The position numbers and the translations under genes are program-made. DNA of 64,000 nt, from assembly GCF_003014735.1 (NCBI RefSeq), contig NZ_PYAX01000008.1, positions 124,001 through 188,000 of the forward strand. The letters are read 5' to 3'. Shown in pieces: positions 13,784-64,000 of this stretch (its first letter is position 1; each line of letters starts with the position of its first letter). A model generated the notes under the pieces. That model was not told where the DNA came from, ran no database searches, and was given only the letters and a program-made list of their open reading frames with translations. Source of the DNA: Saccharothrix carnea. Its GTDB lineage: Bacteria > Actinomycetota > Actinomycetes > Mycobacteriales > Pseudonocardiaceae.

Positions 13784-14415
13784 GCGGCCACCGGCTCGTC
13801 CGCGCGCAGCGCCTTCGTCCAGTTCCGCAGGCCGAGCACGCACAGCGCCATGAACCCGACGTAGAGGATCGCGGTCAGCCACAGGCCCTTGTAGGCGTAC
13901 AACGGAACGTAGATCACGTCCGCGGCGATCCACAGCCACCAGCACTCGACCTTCTTGCGGGTCTGGCCCCACGTGGCCAGCAGCGAGAGCACGGTGGTCA
14001 CGGAATCCGCCCACGGCACGGTCGAGTCGCTGAACGTGGTGAGCACCCACACCAGCAGCAGGGTGCCCGCCACGCCGGCCAGGAGCAGCCACCACCACTG
14101 CGCGCGGGACGTGCGGCTGACCGGCAGCGGGGTGTGCTCGGTGCCGCCCCGCAGCCACGCCCACCAGCCGTACAGCGCGAGCGCGACGTAGACGACCTGC
14201 AGGCCCGAGTCCGCGTACAGGCCGCTGGTCGCGAACAGGACCAGGAAGGCGAGGTTGTTGAGGATGCCGATCGGCCAGTTGAGCGGGTTCTGCCGGGTGA
14301 CCAGCCACACGCACAGCGCGCCGGTGATGAAACCGGCGATCTCGCCCCAGCTGGTGGCGGCGCCCGCGAACGTGAACGCGGTGGTGTTGAACGGCCACAG
14401 GATGACGTCGAGCAC
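13780..14415 (-). CDS. pnuC: Nicotinamide riboside transporter PnuC
   Basis: 211 residues, the normal PnuC length, with about seven membrane helices. Family patterns include SWGEIAGFITGALCVWL, NPLNWPIGILNN, YGWWAW and IAADVIYVPLYAYKGLW. PnuC facilitates diffusion of nicotinamide riboside, trapped inside by the kinase of NadR encoded next. GTG at 14415 is chosen because GGAG (14424-14421) lies 5 bases upstream and the product then begins right before the first hydrophobic stretch. The gene is divergent from the radical SAM gene; a LexA-type palindrome lies 21 bases upstream of this start. Confidence 0.92.
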   Translation of the reverse strand: MLDVILWPFNTTAFTFAGAATSWGEIAGFITGALCVWLVTRQNPLNWPIGILNNLAFLVLFATSGLYADSGLQVVYVALALYGWWAWLRGGTEHTPLPVSRTSRAQWWWLLLAGVAGTLLLVWVLTTFSDSTVPWADSVTTVLSLLATWGQTRKKVECWWLWIAADVIYVPLYAYKGLWLTAILYVGFMALCVLGLRNWTKALRADEPVAA

Positions 14416-14436
14416 AGGCACTCCGTTTGACCATGG

Positions 14437-14454
14437 TTCGAACACGTGTTCGAA
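14437..14454. promoter_or_regulatory. LexA (SOS) box
   Basis: A perfect 18-base palindrome, TTCGAACACGTGTTCGAA. It fits the actinobacterial LexA consensus TCGAAC-N4-GTTCGA completely. It ends 7 bases before the ATG (14462) of the radical SAM gene and lies 21 bases upstream of pnuC, so LexA bound here should block the radical SAM promoter and perhaps pnuC-nadR. Confidence 0.88.
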
Positions 14455-14461
14455 TGTGGAC

Positions 14462-16366
14462 ATGCGATGGGACGGGCAGAAGGACGGGGCGGACCGACAG
14501 CAGGCTCTGCCGGGTTTGCCGGGGCTGGTGCGCAGCGTACGAACTCCCGACTTCGCCGACGTCGTGTTCCACGAGGTGAACGCCAAGTCCGTGCTGAACA
14601 AGGTGCCCGGTGGCGGGTTGCCGTTCGGTTGGACGGTCAACCCCTACCGGGGGTGCACGCACGGTTGCACGTATTGCCTGACGGGTGACACGCCCGTGTT
14701 GCTGGCCGATGGCCGCACCAAGCCGATCGCCGAGCTGGCCGTGGGCGAGGAGGTGTTCGGCACGTCCGAGGGCCGGTACGTGGTCACCCGCGTGCGGGCG
14801 CACTGGAAGACGTCCAAGCCCGCCTACCGGCTGACGTTGAGCGACGGCACGCAGGTGGTGGCGGGCGGTGACCACCGGTTCCTCACCGACGAGGGCTGGA
14901 AGCACGTCACGCCCGGCCGGTGCGACGACTTCGAGGAGCGGCCGTACCTGGTCAAGGGCGCGCAGCTGGTCGGGACGGGCCGGTTCGCCGCGCCGCCGGC
15001 GCGGGGCGCGGAGTACCGGACCGGCTACCTGTGGGGCTTGGTGCGCGGCGGGCTGCCCAGCCACCCGGACGTGCTGGCGCGCGTGCGCGAGTTCTCCGGC
15101 GGCCGGGTGCCGCGCGAGAACGAGCTGGTGGAATGGCCGACCACGCCGGGGGAGGAGTGGTCGAAGGGCTTCCTGGCCGGCCTGTTCGACGCGCGCGGCA
15201 GCTCGACCGGCGGCGAGCTGGTGATGTCCAGTTCGGACAGCGCGGTGTTCGAGGCGGCGGTGCTGGCGTTGACCCGGCTGCGCGTGTCGCACGTGGTCGA
15301 GGTGCGCGGGGTGCGGATCGTCGGCGGGCTGGCCGAGCGGCTGCGGTTCCTGCACCTGGTGTGCCCGGCGATACCGCGCGGCAACGCGGTGGAGGGCATG
15401 GCGGTGCCCGTGACGGCCGGGCTCGCGGTGGTGTCGGTGGAGTCGCTCGGCGTGACGCGGACGTTGTACGACATCACCACCGGCACCGGCGACTTCGTGG
15501 CCAACGGCCTGGTCAGCCACAACTGCTTCGCCCGCAACACGCACACCTACCTCGACCTGGACGCCGGGCGCGACTTCGACACCCAGGTGGTGGTGAAGGT
15601 CAACGCGGTGGACGTGCTGAAGGCCCAGCTGCGGTCCCGCCGTTGGCGGCGGGAGCACGTGGCGATGGGCACGAACACCGACCCGTACCAGCGGGCCGAG
15701 GGCCGGTACGCGCTGATGCCGGGCATCATCCGGGCACTGGCGGATTCCGGTACGCCGTTCTCGATCCTCACCAAGGGCACCGTGCTGTCGCGGGACATAC
15801 CGTTGTTGGCGCAGGCAGCTTCGTCGGTGCCGGTGGGCATCGGGGTGTCGTTGGCACTGCTGGACCGCGAGCTGCAGTCGGGGCTGGAACCGGGCACGCC
15901 GAGCCCTCAGGCGAGGTTGGAGCTGGTGCGCCGGGTGCGTGACGCGGGGCTGCCGTGCGGTGTGTTCGTCGCGCCCGTGCTGCCGAAGCTGACCGACTCG
16001 GAGGAGCGGTTGGACGCCCTGCTGGCCTCGATCGCGGAGGCGGGCGCGACCGGGGTGACCGTCCTGCCGCTGCACCTGCGGCCGGGGGCACGGGAGTGGT
16101 TCGCCCGGTGGCTGGTGCGGGAGCGGCCGGACCTGGTCGACGACTACCGGCGGTTGTACGCGCGGGGGTCCTATGTGGATGCTCGGTACCGGCGGTGGTT
16201 GACGGCTCGGATCCAGCCGTTGTTGGGGCGGCACGGGTTGGACGTGCGGGGTAAGCGCGACGCGGTCGGCGTGCCTGGTGATGACGAGGGTTTGTGGCCG
16301 GAGGGCAGCCTGCCGGCCTCGACTCCGAACGCGCCGGTGGCCCAAGAGCAACTGACCCTCCTGTAG
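14462..16366 (+). CDS. Rv2578c-family radical SAM protein interrupted by an intein
   Basis: 634 residues as translated; 351 after removal of a 283-residue intein (residues 72-354). The host protein has NPYRGCTHGCTY joined to CFARNTHTYLDLDAG, so the spliced product carries the CX3CX2C [4Fe-4S] motif with Cys65, Cys69 and Cys355. Downstream, MGTNTDPYQRAEG and SILTKGT are typical of this spore-photoproduct-lyase-like family, whose reaction is not known. A LexA box overlaps the promoter, which suggests a DNA-damage-related role. ATG at 14462 is chosen; an in-frame GTG at 14456 is possible. No ribosome binding site is visible, so a leaderless mRNA is likely. Confidence 0.93.
   Translation: MRWDGQKDGADRQQALPGLPGLVRSVRTPDFADVVFHEVNAKSVLNKVPGGGLPFGWTVNPYRGCTHGCTYCLTGDTPVLLADGRTKPIAELAVGEEVFGTSEGRYVVTRVRAHWKTSKPAYRLTLSDGTQVVAGGDHRFLTDEGWKHVTPGRCDDFEERPYLVKGAQLVGTGRFAAPPARGAEYRTGYLWGLVRGGLPSHPDVLARVREFSGGRVPRENELVEWPTTPGEEWSKGFLAGLFDARGSSTGGELVMSSSDSAVFEAAVLALTRLRVSHVVEVRGVRIVGGLAERLRFLHLVCPAIPRGNAVEGMAVPVTAGLAVVSVESLGVTRTLYDITTGTGDFVANGLVSHNCFARNTHTYLDLDAGRDFDTQVVVKVNAVDVLKAQLRSRRWRREHVAMGTNTDPYQRAEGRYALMPGIIRALADSGTPFSILTKGTVLSRDIPLLAQAASSVPVGIGVSLALLDRELQSGLEPGTPSPQARLELVRRVRDAGLPCGVFVAPVLPKLTDSEERLDALLASIAEAGATGVTVLPLHLRPGAREWFARWLVRERPDLVDDYRRLYARGSYVDARYRRWLTARIQPLLGRHGLDVRGKRDAVGVPGDDEGLWPEGSLPASTPNAPVAQEQLTLL
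14675..15523 (+). other. Intein within the radical SAM protein
   Basis: 283 residues. Block A begins at Cys72 (CLTGDTPVLLADGRTKPIAEL), block B is GGDHRFLTDEGW, and the end is YDITTGTGDFVANGLVSHN followed by Cys355 as +1 nucleophile. The usual His of block F is Asp, as in many class 1 inteins, and the penultimate His and terminal Asn are intact. The middle holds a degenerate LAGLIDADG endonuclease: YLWGLVRGGL (near residue 189) and FLAGLFDARG (from residue 237) both lack the catalytic acid. Splicing should work, homing should not. Both splice-site cysteines are at the position of the third cluster cysteine. Confidence 0.93.
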
Positions 16367-16402
16367 GCGGATGGGGGAGGGCTCGAAAAGCTTGAAAAGC
16401 CT

Positions 16403-16422
16403 AAAAGCGTCCTCGCCGGACG
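16403..16422 (-). terminator. Outward terminator-like hairpin, left end of repeat
   Basis: Read on the minus strand: CGTCC-GGCGA-GGACG followed by CTTTT and further T-rich sequence. It lies downstream of the minus-strand oxidoreductase gene (stop at 16787), so a transcript crossing the element would meet it. The stem is short (5 bp), so strength is uncertain. Confidence 0.45.
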
Positions 16423-16727
16423 GGCAGATCAGCAGGATGACCCCAACTGCGCCTGGATGTCCTGTTGGGTTGGTGGTCCGGACTCCGTGTCCTCCCACCG
16501 ACCTCCCTCCGGGTTACCACACGTGTCAAGGGCGGCGCGCGGTCCCAGTTGACGCCGCGGGCAGAGGTGGACGCGCCGCCCTTGACACGTGCGGTAAGGC
16601 TTCGCCAGGTCGGCGGGATGACACGAAGCCCTCCTTTGGGAAGAAGGACGTGCCAGTGGACGGCGCGGGGGTCGCCGGCGGGCGCGGGGTCGGGCGGCGC
16701 CGGGGCGGGTGCGGCTGCTGATCTGCA

Positions 16728-16747
16728 CGTCCGGCGAGGACGCTTTT
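16728..16747 (+). terminator. Outward terminator-like hairpin, right end of repeat
   Basis: CGTCC (16728-16732), loop GGCGA, GGACG (16738-16742), then CTTTTAATCTTTTGATCTTT. The hairpin plus T-tract is placed to stop plus-strand transcripts coming from the radical SAM gene. It mirrors the left end and forms part of the terminal inverted repeat. Confidence 0.5.
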
Positions 16748-16786
16748 AATCTTTTGATCTTTCCAAGCTTTTGATCTCTCACGTCT

Positions 16787-18181
16787 TCAGGACACCGACT
16801 GGGGGAACCGGAGCACACGGTCCGGGTCGTAGCGGTGGGCGATGGCGCGCAGTCGGCGGAGGTTGTGGCGGTAGCCCGTCTCCGCCCAGTCCTCCTGTTC
16901 CGGATCGAGGTAGTTGATGTAAGTACCGGTGCCGATCAAGCCCGCCAACGCCGACTGCGCGTCGTCCACCTCCCGCGTCACGTGCTCAGCCGGCAGGTTG
17001 CCGACGGTGCCGAAGACCTCGACGGACGTCGGTGCGCCACGATGCGGGTAAGCGGTGTCGGTTGGGCTCAACCTGTCGATCGCGCCGCCGAGCGCGCCGA
17101 TGATGAGCAGCGCGCTGTCCGTGCCGCGCACCGTGTCGGCCACCGCCGCCGGGTCGTCCCACCCGCTGTCCGCGATGCGTGACGACGCGCGGAAGGCGTT
17201 GCGGGGCGGGTGGCCCTGGGTCATGATCGCCGTCGCGGTCGGGTAGTCGACCTCGGCGTGCTCCAGCGGTCCGTCGACGCCCAGGTGGGCCAGTTCGCCG
17301 AGCAGGAGGGCGGCCGGGCCGATCGAGCAGCCGGTGAGGTCCACCGAACCGTCCGGCAGGACCACGCACGTGCTGGAGATCCCCTCGGGCACCGCGGTGC
17401 TCCACGGTTGCCAGGCGCCGAGCACGTCCGCCGCGGACCCGGCCGGGAACCGGATGCGGAACACGGTCAGCACCTCCGGCACTGGCGCGGTGGCGAACTC
17501 GAACGACGTGACGACGCCGAAGTTGCCGCCGCCTCCGCCGCGCAGTGCCCAGAACAGGTCGGGTTCGCGGTCTTCCGAGGCGGTCACCTCGCGGCTGTCG
17601 ACGGTGACCACCCGGGCGGCACGCAGCCAGTCGCACGTCAGGCCGTACGCGCGGCCGACCCAGCCGAGTCCGCCGCCCAGGGTGAGGCCGGCGATGCCGA
17701 CCGAGGGGCAGTTGCCCAGCGGCAGGCACCGGCCCGCGGCGGCGAGCGCCGCGTAGACGTCACCGAGCCGGGCACCCGCGCCGACCACGGCGGTGCCGTC
17801 CTGCCGCACCTCGACGCCGTCCAGCGGCGCGAGGTCGATCACCAGGCCGTCGTGCGGGGTGGAGTAGGCGGCGTAGCTGTGCCCGCCACCGCGGGGGGCC
17901 ACCCGGAGGCCGGACCGGCGGGCCTCCTCCAGGCAGTGCCGGACGTCCTCGGCCCGCGTGCAGCGGGCGATCGCGGCCGGTCGGTGGTGGTCGAACAGCG
18001 AGTTGAACGGCAGTCGCGCGGTCTCGTACGCCGCGTCACCGGGAAGCAGCAGCTCACCGGCCAAGCGGGCACGCAGCCGCGCCCACCGCGCGGGCCGCGT
18101 CCCCGCGACCGCGCCACCAGCGGCCACCGCCGCACCCGCCCACCGCAACACGTTCCGCCGCGAGACCACCACGCGACCCAT
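16787..18181 (-). CDS. Tat-exported FAD-linked oxidoreductase (berberine-bridge-enzyme type)
   Basis: 464 residues. The N-terminus carries a twin-arginine signal (SRRNVLRW, then an Ala/Gly-rich stretch). The FAD-binding PCMH domain has GGGHSYAAYS with His101 and GNCPSVGIAGLTLGGGLGW with Cys158, the two residues that attach FAD in bicovalent BBE-type oxidases. The C-terminus YINYLDPEQ...YDPDRVLRFPQSV is the usual BBE ending. Such enzymes oxidise sugars, alcohols or alkaloids with oxygen; the substrate is unknown. Export before FAD-folding via Tat is consistent. ATG at 18181 is used; a GTG four codons in is possible. The gene is divergent from an NTF2-like gene across a palindromic operator. 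Confidence 0.9.
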   Translation of the reverse strand: MGRVVVSRRNVLRWAGAAVAAGGAVAGTRPARWARLRARLAGELLLPGDAAYETARLPFNSLFDHHRPAAIARCTRAEDVRHCLEEARRSGLRVAPRGGGHSYAAYSTPHDGLVIDLAPLDGVEVRQDGTAVVGAGARLGDVYAALAAAGRCLPLGNCPSVGIAGLTLGGGLGWVGRAYGLTCDWLRAARVVTVDSREVTASEDREPDLFWALRGGGGGNFGVVTSFEFATAPVPEVLTVFRIRFPAGSAADVLGAWQPWSTAVPEGISSTCVVLPDGSVDLTGCSIGPAALLLGELAHLGVDGPLEHAEVDYPTATAIMTQGHPPRNAFRASSRIADSGWDDPAAVADTVRGTDSALLIIGALGGAIDRLSPTDTAYPHRGAPTSVEVFGTVGNLPAEHVTREVDDAQSALAGLIGTGTYINYLDPEQEDWAETGYRHNLRRLRAIAHRYDPDRVLRFPQSVS

Positions 18182-63743: not shown

Positions 63744-64000
63744 GTCTCGAAAGCTCAAGAGCTCGAAAAGATCAAAAGCGTCCTCGCCGGACGGGCAGAT
63801 CAGCAGGATGACCCCAACTACCCCTGGATGTCCCGACCCGGCGTGGTCCCGGGCTTCGTGTCATCCCACCGACCCCCGCGCCGTGCCACTGGCACGTCCT
63901 TCTTCCCTGGAAGGAGGGCTTCGTGTCATCCCGCCGACCTGGCGCAGCCTTACCGCACGTGTCAAGGGCGGCGCGTCCACCTCTGCCCGCGGCGTCAACT
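63744..64000. repeat. Non-coding palindromic repeat element, copy 2 (cut by window end)
   Basis: It begins 6 bases after the stop of the preceding gene with A-rich CTCGAAAGCTCAAGAGCTCG, then the same 33-bp terminal repeat as copy 1 (63774-63806, identical to 16403-16435) and GATGACCCCAACT. After about 50 bases of related sequence, positions 63886-64000 are the reverse complement of 16547-16659 of copy 1 (a 2-base length difference). GGCTTCGTGTCATCCC occurs twice inside (63852 and 63918). The right end lies beyond the window. No gene is seen. Confidence 0.85.

Follow-up and report, generated by a model that had tools for sequence, protein, structure and literature searches.

The small interspersed repeats of bacteria include MITEs and sequences of the BOX and RUP type; REP/BIME elements are inverted pairs of palindromic units located between genes, an arrangement shared by the element considered here. 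The conjugative elements to which this element is compared are the pSAM2-type AICEs. An earlier review, cited in a survey of AICEs, assigns the nick sites of pSAM2 and RepAM to the pC194-type family, but the survey, for its part, links pSAM2 RepSA with the phiX174 group; the parts of the survey consulted describe no non-coding module of the kind reported below (PMC3218068). For the conversion of transferred ssDNA to dsDNA, virtually nothing was known in 2015 for ICEBs1 or any ICE, according to the parts consulted of a study of that year (PMC4595007).

The window analyzed here is a stretch of 64,000 nucleotides, positions 124001-188000 of contig C8 in the genome of Saccharothrix carnea (G000; 8.9 Mb, 40 contigs), in which genes were called with a codon model built for this analysis. 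A non-coding element, E1 (16381-16778), fills the gap between the end of a plus-strand gene at 16366 and the end of a minus-strand reading frame at 16787. RNA folding of this interval gives -237.4 kcal/mol, whereas 100 shuffled sequences average -181.1 (z -8.5), and in self-alignment the ends of 16403-16747 are inverted repeats, 97% identical over 33 bp, which bears out the 33-bp terminal inverted repeats described by the first-pass annotation. A second copy, E9, runs past the window edge to C8:188145 and thus occupies window positions 63774-64145. Both copies lie in gaps between convergent genes according to the gene calls and, as had been claimed, both follow plus-strand stop codons (16366 and 63737). 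The features of the two copies are given in Table 1. E1 is probably, though we hold this with modest confidence, a partial copy of a two-headed dispersed repeat of H, a strand-specific structural module of AICEs that turned into a chromosomal 3'-end repeat. The plus-strand gene before E1 (14255-16366) is a radical-SAM gene, and its translated reading frame appears by eye to contain an intein-like insert, from CLTGDTPV... to ...GLVSHNC.

Table 1. Features of element copies E1 and E9, in window coordinates.
Feature	Position	Strand	Basis or remark
E1: A-rich left flank, GCTTGAAAAGC-type repeats	16381-16408	-	on the minus strand, this is the T-rich tract that follows the left terminal hairpin
E1: left terminal hairpin GTCC-loop-GGAC (helix P3), facing outward	16409-16421	-	Watson-Crick in 279/280 cells of 70 dispersed units
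E1: third arm t, minus strand GGGGTCATCCTGCTGATCTGCCC; alternative partner of strand a'	16422-16444	-	sequence and covariation
E1: strand a' of long helix P1	16485-16504	-	by homology
E1: inner helix P2, one arm (TTACCACACGTGTCAAGGGCGGCGCG)	16514-16539	-	sequence, fold, covariation
E1: inner helix P2, other arm (CGCGCCGCCCTTGACACGTGCGGTAA)	16572-16597	-	sequence, fold, covariation
E1: arm1 of long helix P1	16607-16625	-	by homology
E1: spacer at the centre, as found in the two-headed form, continuing into the right-half remnant	16632-16714		sequence
E1: right "terminal inverted repeat", consisting of arm t and hairpin from the 3' end of a right unit otherwise absent	16715-16747	+	sequence, inverted-repeat match
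E1: T-rich right flank (CTTTTAATCTTTTGATC)	16743-16778	+	sequence; T-tract count
E9: A-rich left flank	63744-63773	-	sequence
E9: first part of left unit, spacer, complete plus-orientation right unit	63774-64000	+	continues on the contig to 64145

The full two-headed form, seen in E3, E4, E5, and E10, is about 565 bp long and consists of two inverted H units placed head to head with a GC-rich spacer between them. Each H unit of about 220 bp combines a pair of long helices with a third arm, t, and with a small hairpin and T-rich tract; toward the outer end the order is arm1, one arm of P2, a variable loop, the other arm of P2, strand a' (the P1 partner of arm1), a linker, t, P3 (GTCC-GGCGA-GGAC), and the T-rich tract. 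The terminal inverted repeats are t plus P3, that is, the 3' ends of two head-to-head H units. In E1 the left unit is present, the right one being reduced to its end; in E9 the right unit is present together with an initial portion of the left. E9 aligns to E1 on the opposite strand (85% over query positions 1-345), and the left ends of the two copies are 86% identical over 104 bases. The second copy reported by the first-pass annotation is therefore real, though with a similar rather than identical left end; its opposite orientation also stands as an alignment, but the inner breakpoints of E1 and E9 differ, so that neither copy is a simple inversion of the other.

Orthologous loci bear on how the two orientations arose. 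The E5 locus, with flanks 91.5 to 95.1% identical among its orthologues, has the two-headed form in S. carnea and G017, the left half without a right end in the aligned stretch in G015, and the right half with a scrap of the left end in G013; another locus has two heads in G009 and one in G015. Retention of different halves yields opposite core orientations without any inversion, and for the "inverted core" the loss of different halves would be a better explanation than an inversion switch. That halves were lost at the E5 locus rather than gained is suggested, though without an outgroup to polarise the change, by the left-end scrap in G013 and by truncated halves elsewhere. A true invertible element, the core of which flips by recombination between its own ends, had been offered by the first-pass annotation and would fit the opposite core orientation of two copies with inverted ends; we consider it very improbable, given the unlike inner breakpoints of the window copies and the presence at one locus of both halves (G000, G017), the left only (G015), or the right and a scrap (G013). 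Copies that share ends and breakpoints and carry the core in either orientation were found neither in the E1/E9 comparison nor at the E5 locus, and on these grounds the inversion switch was rejected.

The element is a real, widespread, and structured dispersed repeat. A BLAST search with E1 against its own genome gave at least 110 matches, merged into at least 32 places (E1-E32; 40 of 214 candidates scored); a further exact copy of the 15-base end motif, at C4:363046, lies outside this list. Both ends are recognizable by the hairpin motif in nine of the 32 places, four places stop at a contig end, and the remainder are remnants or units with one end, among them the weak E31 and E32; E24 is an AICE-type copy. 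Apart from E31, which overlaps a called open reading frame, and the contacts of E20 (16 bp) and E23 (1 bp) with genes, the places lie between called genes, so that a dispersed, multicopy family without coding capacity is present, as in MITEs. Four of the 40 contigs (C16, C19, C31, and C35) end in, or no more than 10 bp from, element copies; the assembly thus seems to have been broken by the element, and the copy count is a lower bound. Matches occur in 23 of 25 genomes of the genus, S. carnea included, and at an E value of 1e-3 in at least 163 of 297 genomes of a family sample (two candidates scored per genome), which upholds the dispersed gene-less family with inverted ends that had been proposed. 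Among the matches listed in a pattern scan were Saccharothrix, Actinophytocola, Kutzneria, Saccharomonospora, Amycolatopsis, and Longimycelium, together with a Pseudonocardiales MAG and a record named Nocardia sp. NRRL S-836. One match among those listed lies outside the actinobacteria, on a contig of Alloalcanivorax marinus (L207), through chance, contamination, or transfer.

A rival reading takes the family for a MITE, in which a transposase would act in trans on the 33-42 bp inverted ends of a short element. Inverted ends and dispersed copies favor such mobility, as does the E1 site itself, which is filled in S. carnea and empty in relatives: in comparison with 19 relatives' loci carrying the radical-SAM gene (L112-L130; gene end extrapolated in L129 and L130), the site is occupied only in S. 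carnea, and the element is absent from the 1.5 kb after the gene in all 19, two weak partial matches aside (L116, 61 bp at 76%; L125, 17 bp). The convergent gene pair of the E1 site recurs in L112 and L116 with a short spacer only. No clean junction is readable as an insertion footprint at the E1 and E5 loci, where the spacers differ between species; no target-site duplication was seen by eye in the copies read, in which variable A/T flanks blur the junction. Among the exact end-motif hits in the S. carnea genome (34 copies) there is no larger element with these ends and hence no autonomous parent: facing pairs are 322-545 bp apart, the next being 110 kb apart. Two recognized units are present in only one of 20 fetched loci of G015, and the ends are arms that covary, unlike the fixed sites of a transposase. 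Movement by a transposase is therefore improbable; of the proposal of a MITE-like mobile family, the dispersal, lack of genes, and inverted ends are borne out.

Other repeats occur near these sites. The empty-site spacer after the radical-SAM gene in L112 and L116 contains tandemly arranged short motifs such as CGAGAGTCCTACGTCC, which may represent another dispersed repeat; the empty-site motif GAGYGTTSRACTC has no match within the window. Beside the T-rich ends of E11 and E12 lies a second palindromic repeat of about 166 bp (L011:1818-1983, equivalent to C8:200442-200607, and C22:60551-60716), which has 66 matches in about 38 places of the S. carnea genome, none of them in the window; similar sequence flanks H units in G015 and G017.

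The first-pass annotation regarded the family as undescribed, a view that stands within the searches made. Rfam gave no match in the window at gathering score, and across 13 loci only tRNA reached its gathering score; a known RNA family was rejected, as the gathering and E-value scans returned tRNA (gathering) and weak hits only. No title or abstract in the literature searched describes this repeat, and the main text of the S. espanaensis genome paper, in the part consulted, is without mention of repeats, palindromes, or AICEs (PMC3469384).

The structure of H was evaluated by covariation in an alignment of 31 relatives. These were taken from a set of 35 (40 family units minus L076, L090, L098, L102, and L108) by omitting L099, L101, and L103, which are genus copies outside AICEs, and L085, which has a misaligned end; the 31 still include L081 and L082, which are dispersed Actinophytocola copies. 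Helices P1, P2, and P3 are paired in 97.2% of 1235 cells, 22 of their 40 pairs are changed on both sides, and none of 500 shuffles reaches any of five measures; pairing falls to 33-50% when the partners are slid. P3 alone covaries in three of its four pairs. The alternative helix a':t is paired in 89.3% of cells, with pairing and covariation score reached in 0 of 500 shuffles; seven of 17 pairs are changed on both sides (1 of 500 shuffles), and the number of pair types is reached in 37 of 500. Arm t tracks arm1 at changed pairs (e.g., T/A/T in 18 and C/G/C in 13 of the 35 units). Arm t covaries with P1, and either arm1 or t could thus be the partner of strand a'; alternatively, the third arm could come from a single protein site occurring in triplicate, or from arm-to-arm conversion.

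Strand bias was assessed by comparing G-U with A-C cells. The 70 dispersed genus units have 75 G-U vs. 40 A-C cells in P1 and 153 vs. 3 in P2 (228 G-U in total), with 37 of the 43 A-C cells located at one edge pair that is probably outside the helix; 63 of the 70 have the more stable fold on the sense strand. The 10 AICE-type units have 4 G-U vs. 6 A-C cells in P1 and 18 vs. 0 in P2, and the sense strand folds better in just six. For the 35 relatives, hand-set helices give 33 vs. 19 in P1 and 63 vs. 8 in P2, and pairs predicted on both strands give 20 G-U vs. 12 A-C. The structure is conserved and, in dispersed copies, conserved on one strand, as RNA or single-stranded DNA. H thus has in common with an sso that it is non-coding and structured on one strand, with a strand bias that is clear in dispersed units and partial in AICE-type units.

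The genes that accompany H connect it to conjugative elements. Twenty neighborhoods, mostly of about 13 kb, were chosen by us (E24 and 19 of the 40 family loci); 15 contain clusters of hallmark genes, and five have no hallmark gene in the stretch fetched. All 36 hallmark genes are 3' of H, with none 5' of it in the stretch fetched, and each of the 30 RepSA, TraB-like, C0, and integrase genes shares the strand of H. The fixed orientation to a rolling-circle rep gene that characterizes an sso is also found, as RepSA is on the H strand in all five of the 20 neighborhoods that show it. Pfam names for cluster representatives are RepSA (1.6e-151), GntR with UTRA, phage integrase, NUDIX, and HD. For the TraB-like cluster Pfam gave no hit below 0.001; the name comes from its position, as it matches an FtsK-annotated gene in the same order on plasmids. 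By these assignments, the genes beside H are the gene set of pSAM2-type AICEs.

In many relatives another hairpin, variable in sequence, comes after H together with a conserved tail, CCGCCTTGA..AAGWARAGAAASTNTGAAC (16 of 32 loci, strict motif). The tail also occurs with no H in the 650 bases upstream (by eye), at L300 (S. carnea C6:535931) and at L296 and L299, both from outside the family, and is thus a separate module; it matches six of 394 genomes of the class, among them S. carnea and one genome of the same family. The tail is a candidate double-strand origin, and its CTTGA beside a hairpin recalls pC194-type nick regions. Of three plasmids with RepSA relatives, L302 has the tail motif with six mismatches and L303 with eight, and L301 has none within nine. 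A blastn search with one query, from L094, gave no phage or plasmid relatives of the A-type region.

Several further observations were made at these loci. S. carnea has two AICE tail modules, L300 without H and L032/L173 (C3:300877) with H upstream, the latter near an integrase-like fragment and tRNA-Met. L303, a Streptomyces formicae plasmid record of 27.8 kb, is likely a tandem multimer of a pSAM2-like unit of about 10.4 kb, as its annotated gene order repeats. Upstream of the AICE-type copy in G001, the reverse strand of L094 has at least two CRISPR-like repeats (GGAACACCCCCGCTCGCGCGGGGAAGAC), seen by eye. AT-rich sequence upstream of H in AICEs was considered as a putative promoter.

On the chromosome, the placement of single units relative to genes is biased. 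Of 37 single units of the genus, 27 share their strand with the 5'-side gene, a count that is non-independent as it includes orthologous loci (one unit is E24), and in 22 of these 27 the called stop is within 68 bp; the 5'-side gene is on the opposite strand in the other 10 single units and in five of seven remnants. For Actinophytocola, the 5'-side gene is on the same strand in 10 of 16 single units. Two-headed copies (n = 24) are found between convergent (8), tandem (13), and divergent (3) genes, and the idea that the two-headed form is confined to convergent genes was rejected accordingly. The striking A/T-rich flanks singled out by the first-pass annotation are real: T makes up 0.50 of the 12 bases after P3 at 88 ends from S. 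carnea and six genus relatives, compared with 13.5% of the window, and 0.48 at 29 AICE-type or other-genus ends, with a value of 0 in 13 dispersed Actinophytocola units. For an intrinsic terminator the picture is mixed, the hairpin and T tract being present in Saccharothrix and AICE-type copies and the T tract absent from the 13 Actinophytocola units. The TTTTGATCTTTTGATC tracts flanking dispersed copies (e.g., window 16743-16778) may also resemble AT-rich origin-unwinding 13-mers.

These features make it a serious possibility, though one to which we give distinctly less than even weight, that H is primarily a transcription terminator or insulator, blocking chromosomal transcription from entering AICEs and ending chromosomal genes, with the two-headed form acting bidirectionally. 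The P3 hairpin with T-rich tracts (0.50 in Saccharothrix, 0.48 at AICE-type or other-genus ends) well above the window's 0.135, the location of most single units after stop codons in the same sense, and the position of all hallmark AICE genes 3' of H are as this function would predict. The conserved structure and third arm, however, far exceed a terminator's needs, the dispersed Actinophytocola units lack the T tract, and two-headed copies lie between divergent and tandem genes as well. A terminator role is plausible in Saccharothrix, yet it cannot account for conservation of the structure as a whole.

Dispersal of H seems to have occurred in more than one lineage. In trees made with FastTree without a formal test, in which nesting depends on the outgroups chosen, the 22 dispersed genus units that were sampled group as a single clade (support 0.977) with L103, another genus copy, as sister; 13 of the 14 Actinophytocola units included form a second clade (support 1.0) with L081 and L082 of the same species, and both clades nest within the family set (rooted on L104). 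The Actinophytocola units have the same H core with their own conserved sequence on both sides. A larger tree contained 70 dispersed units, found by motif in 76 listed places of seven genomes, with E1 and most remnants unmatched; units group mostly by species rather than by locus, exceptions being E18 and one half of G009_L044.

To compare orthologous copies, all 32 cross-species pairs with a flank match of at least 450 bp were considered, an earlier set of 13 pairs having been hand-picked; removal of 10 pairs with no recognized unit on one side and three with no paralogue in the set left 19, some of which share one flank only. In 19 of these 19 comparable pairs the orthologous units are less alike than the best paralogues of both genomes, with identities of 80.0 to 90.5% for orthologues, 92.2 to 100% for best paralogues, and 87.2 to 96.6% for flanks; in L158/L144 and L160/L143 the unit is about as similar as the flanks. 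Concerted evolution by recombination between copies offers the simplest reading of these values, although low orthologue identity could alternatively result from repeated insertion at the same sites.

The reading of E1 as a partial copy of a repeat derived from an AICE module may be expanded as follows. In AICEs, H would work as a folded single-strand structure of the replicated strand, similar to a single-strand origin and next to the candidate double-strand origin. Copies would have escaped from AICEs to the chromosome, where they may have been kept in 3' untranslated regions, the hairpin and T tract being able to act as a terminator; these copies would be homogenized by recombination, and deletion of one half would give the appearance of core inversion. 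We infer the function of H, whether single-strand-origin-like or terminator-like, and its mode of spread from sequence patterns. A role like that of a single-strand origin is ranked first in our analysis, closely followed by that of a terminator or insulator. In AICE copies, the constant orientation relative to repSA, the folding, and a place beside the candidate double-strand origin are consistent with a single-strand origin and also with a transcription insulator; the weak strand bias of AICE-type units slightly lowers our confidence in the explanation as a whole. A bolder version, which we regard as speculative and rather unlikely in full, is that a self-folding replication module of AICEs twice became a chromosomal dispersed repeat, a bacterial counterpart of SINEs derived from a structured non-coding sequence, under selection on single-strand structure and with homogenization across the chromosome, its three arms forming a switch, in which a' pairs with either arm1 or t, that acts in replication or in the formation of 3' ends.

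H is a concrete and testable candidate for the ssDNA-to-dsDNA conversion step in the pSAM2 class. It also allows a dispersed bacterial repeat to be linked, in two lineages, to the non-coding module of a mobile element, with strong covariation and signs of concerted evolution, so that the origin, spread, and domestication of a repeat are open to study in culturable actinomycetes. Unusual, and testable, is this link between a dispersed palindromic repeat, itself of a known kind, and conjugative elements.

The element shares features with each of the described systems. Like MITEs and repeats of the BOX and RUP type, it is short, gene-less, dispersed, and intergenic with inverted ends; it differs from them in that no target duplication or parent transposase was found in the copies and genome searched, and in having a non-coding AICE module as a relative, a two-headed form, and three covarying arms. 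REP/BIME sequences are matched in their inverted pairing, but the unit of this element is about 220 nt long, with two long helices and a third arm. RepSA, GntR, TraB-like, integrase, and NUDIX genes of pSAM2-type AICEs adjoin H in other genomes, whereas most chromosomal copies, by inspection, have no AICE genes alongside. The sso and sti sequences of rolling-circle plasmids and sso1 of ICEBs1 are, in the parts of the studies consulted, like H in being non-coding, stem-loop, and orientation-specific and in accompanying a rolling-circle initiator (PMC4595007; PMC4170104, on pIJ101); H, which is likened to them by these features and for which this function is a candidate, differs in that its copies are also dispersed in chromosomes.
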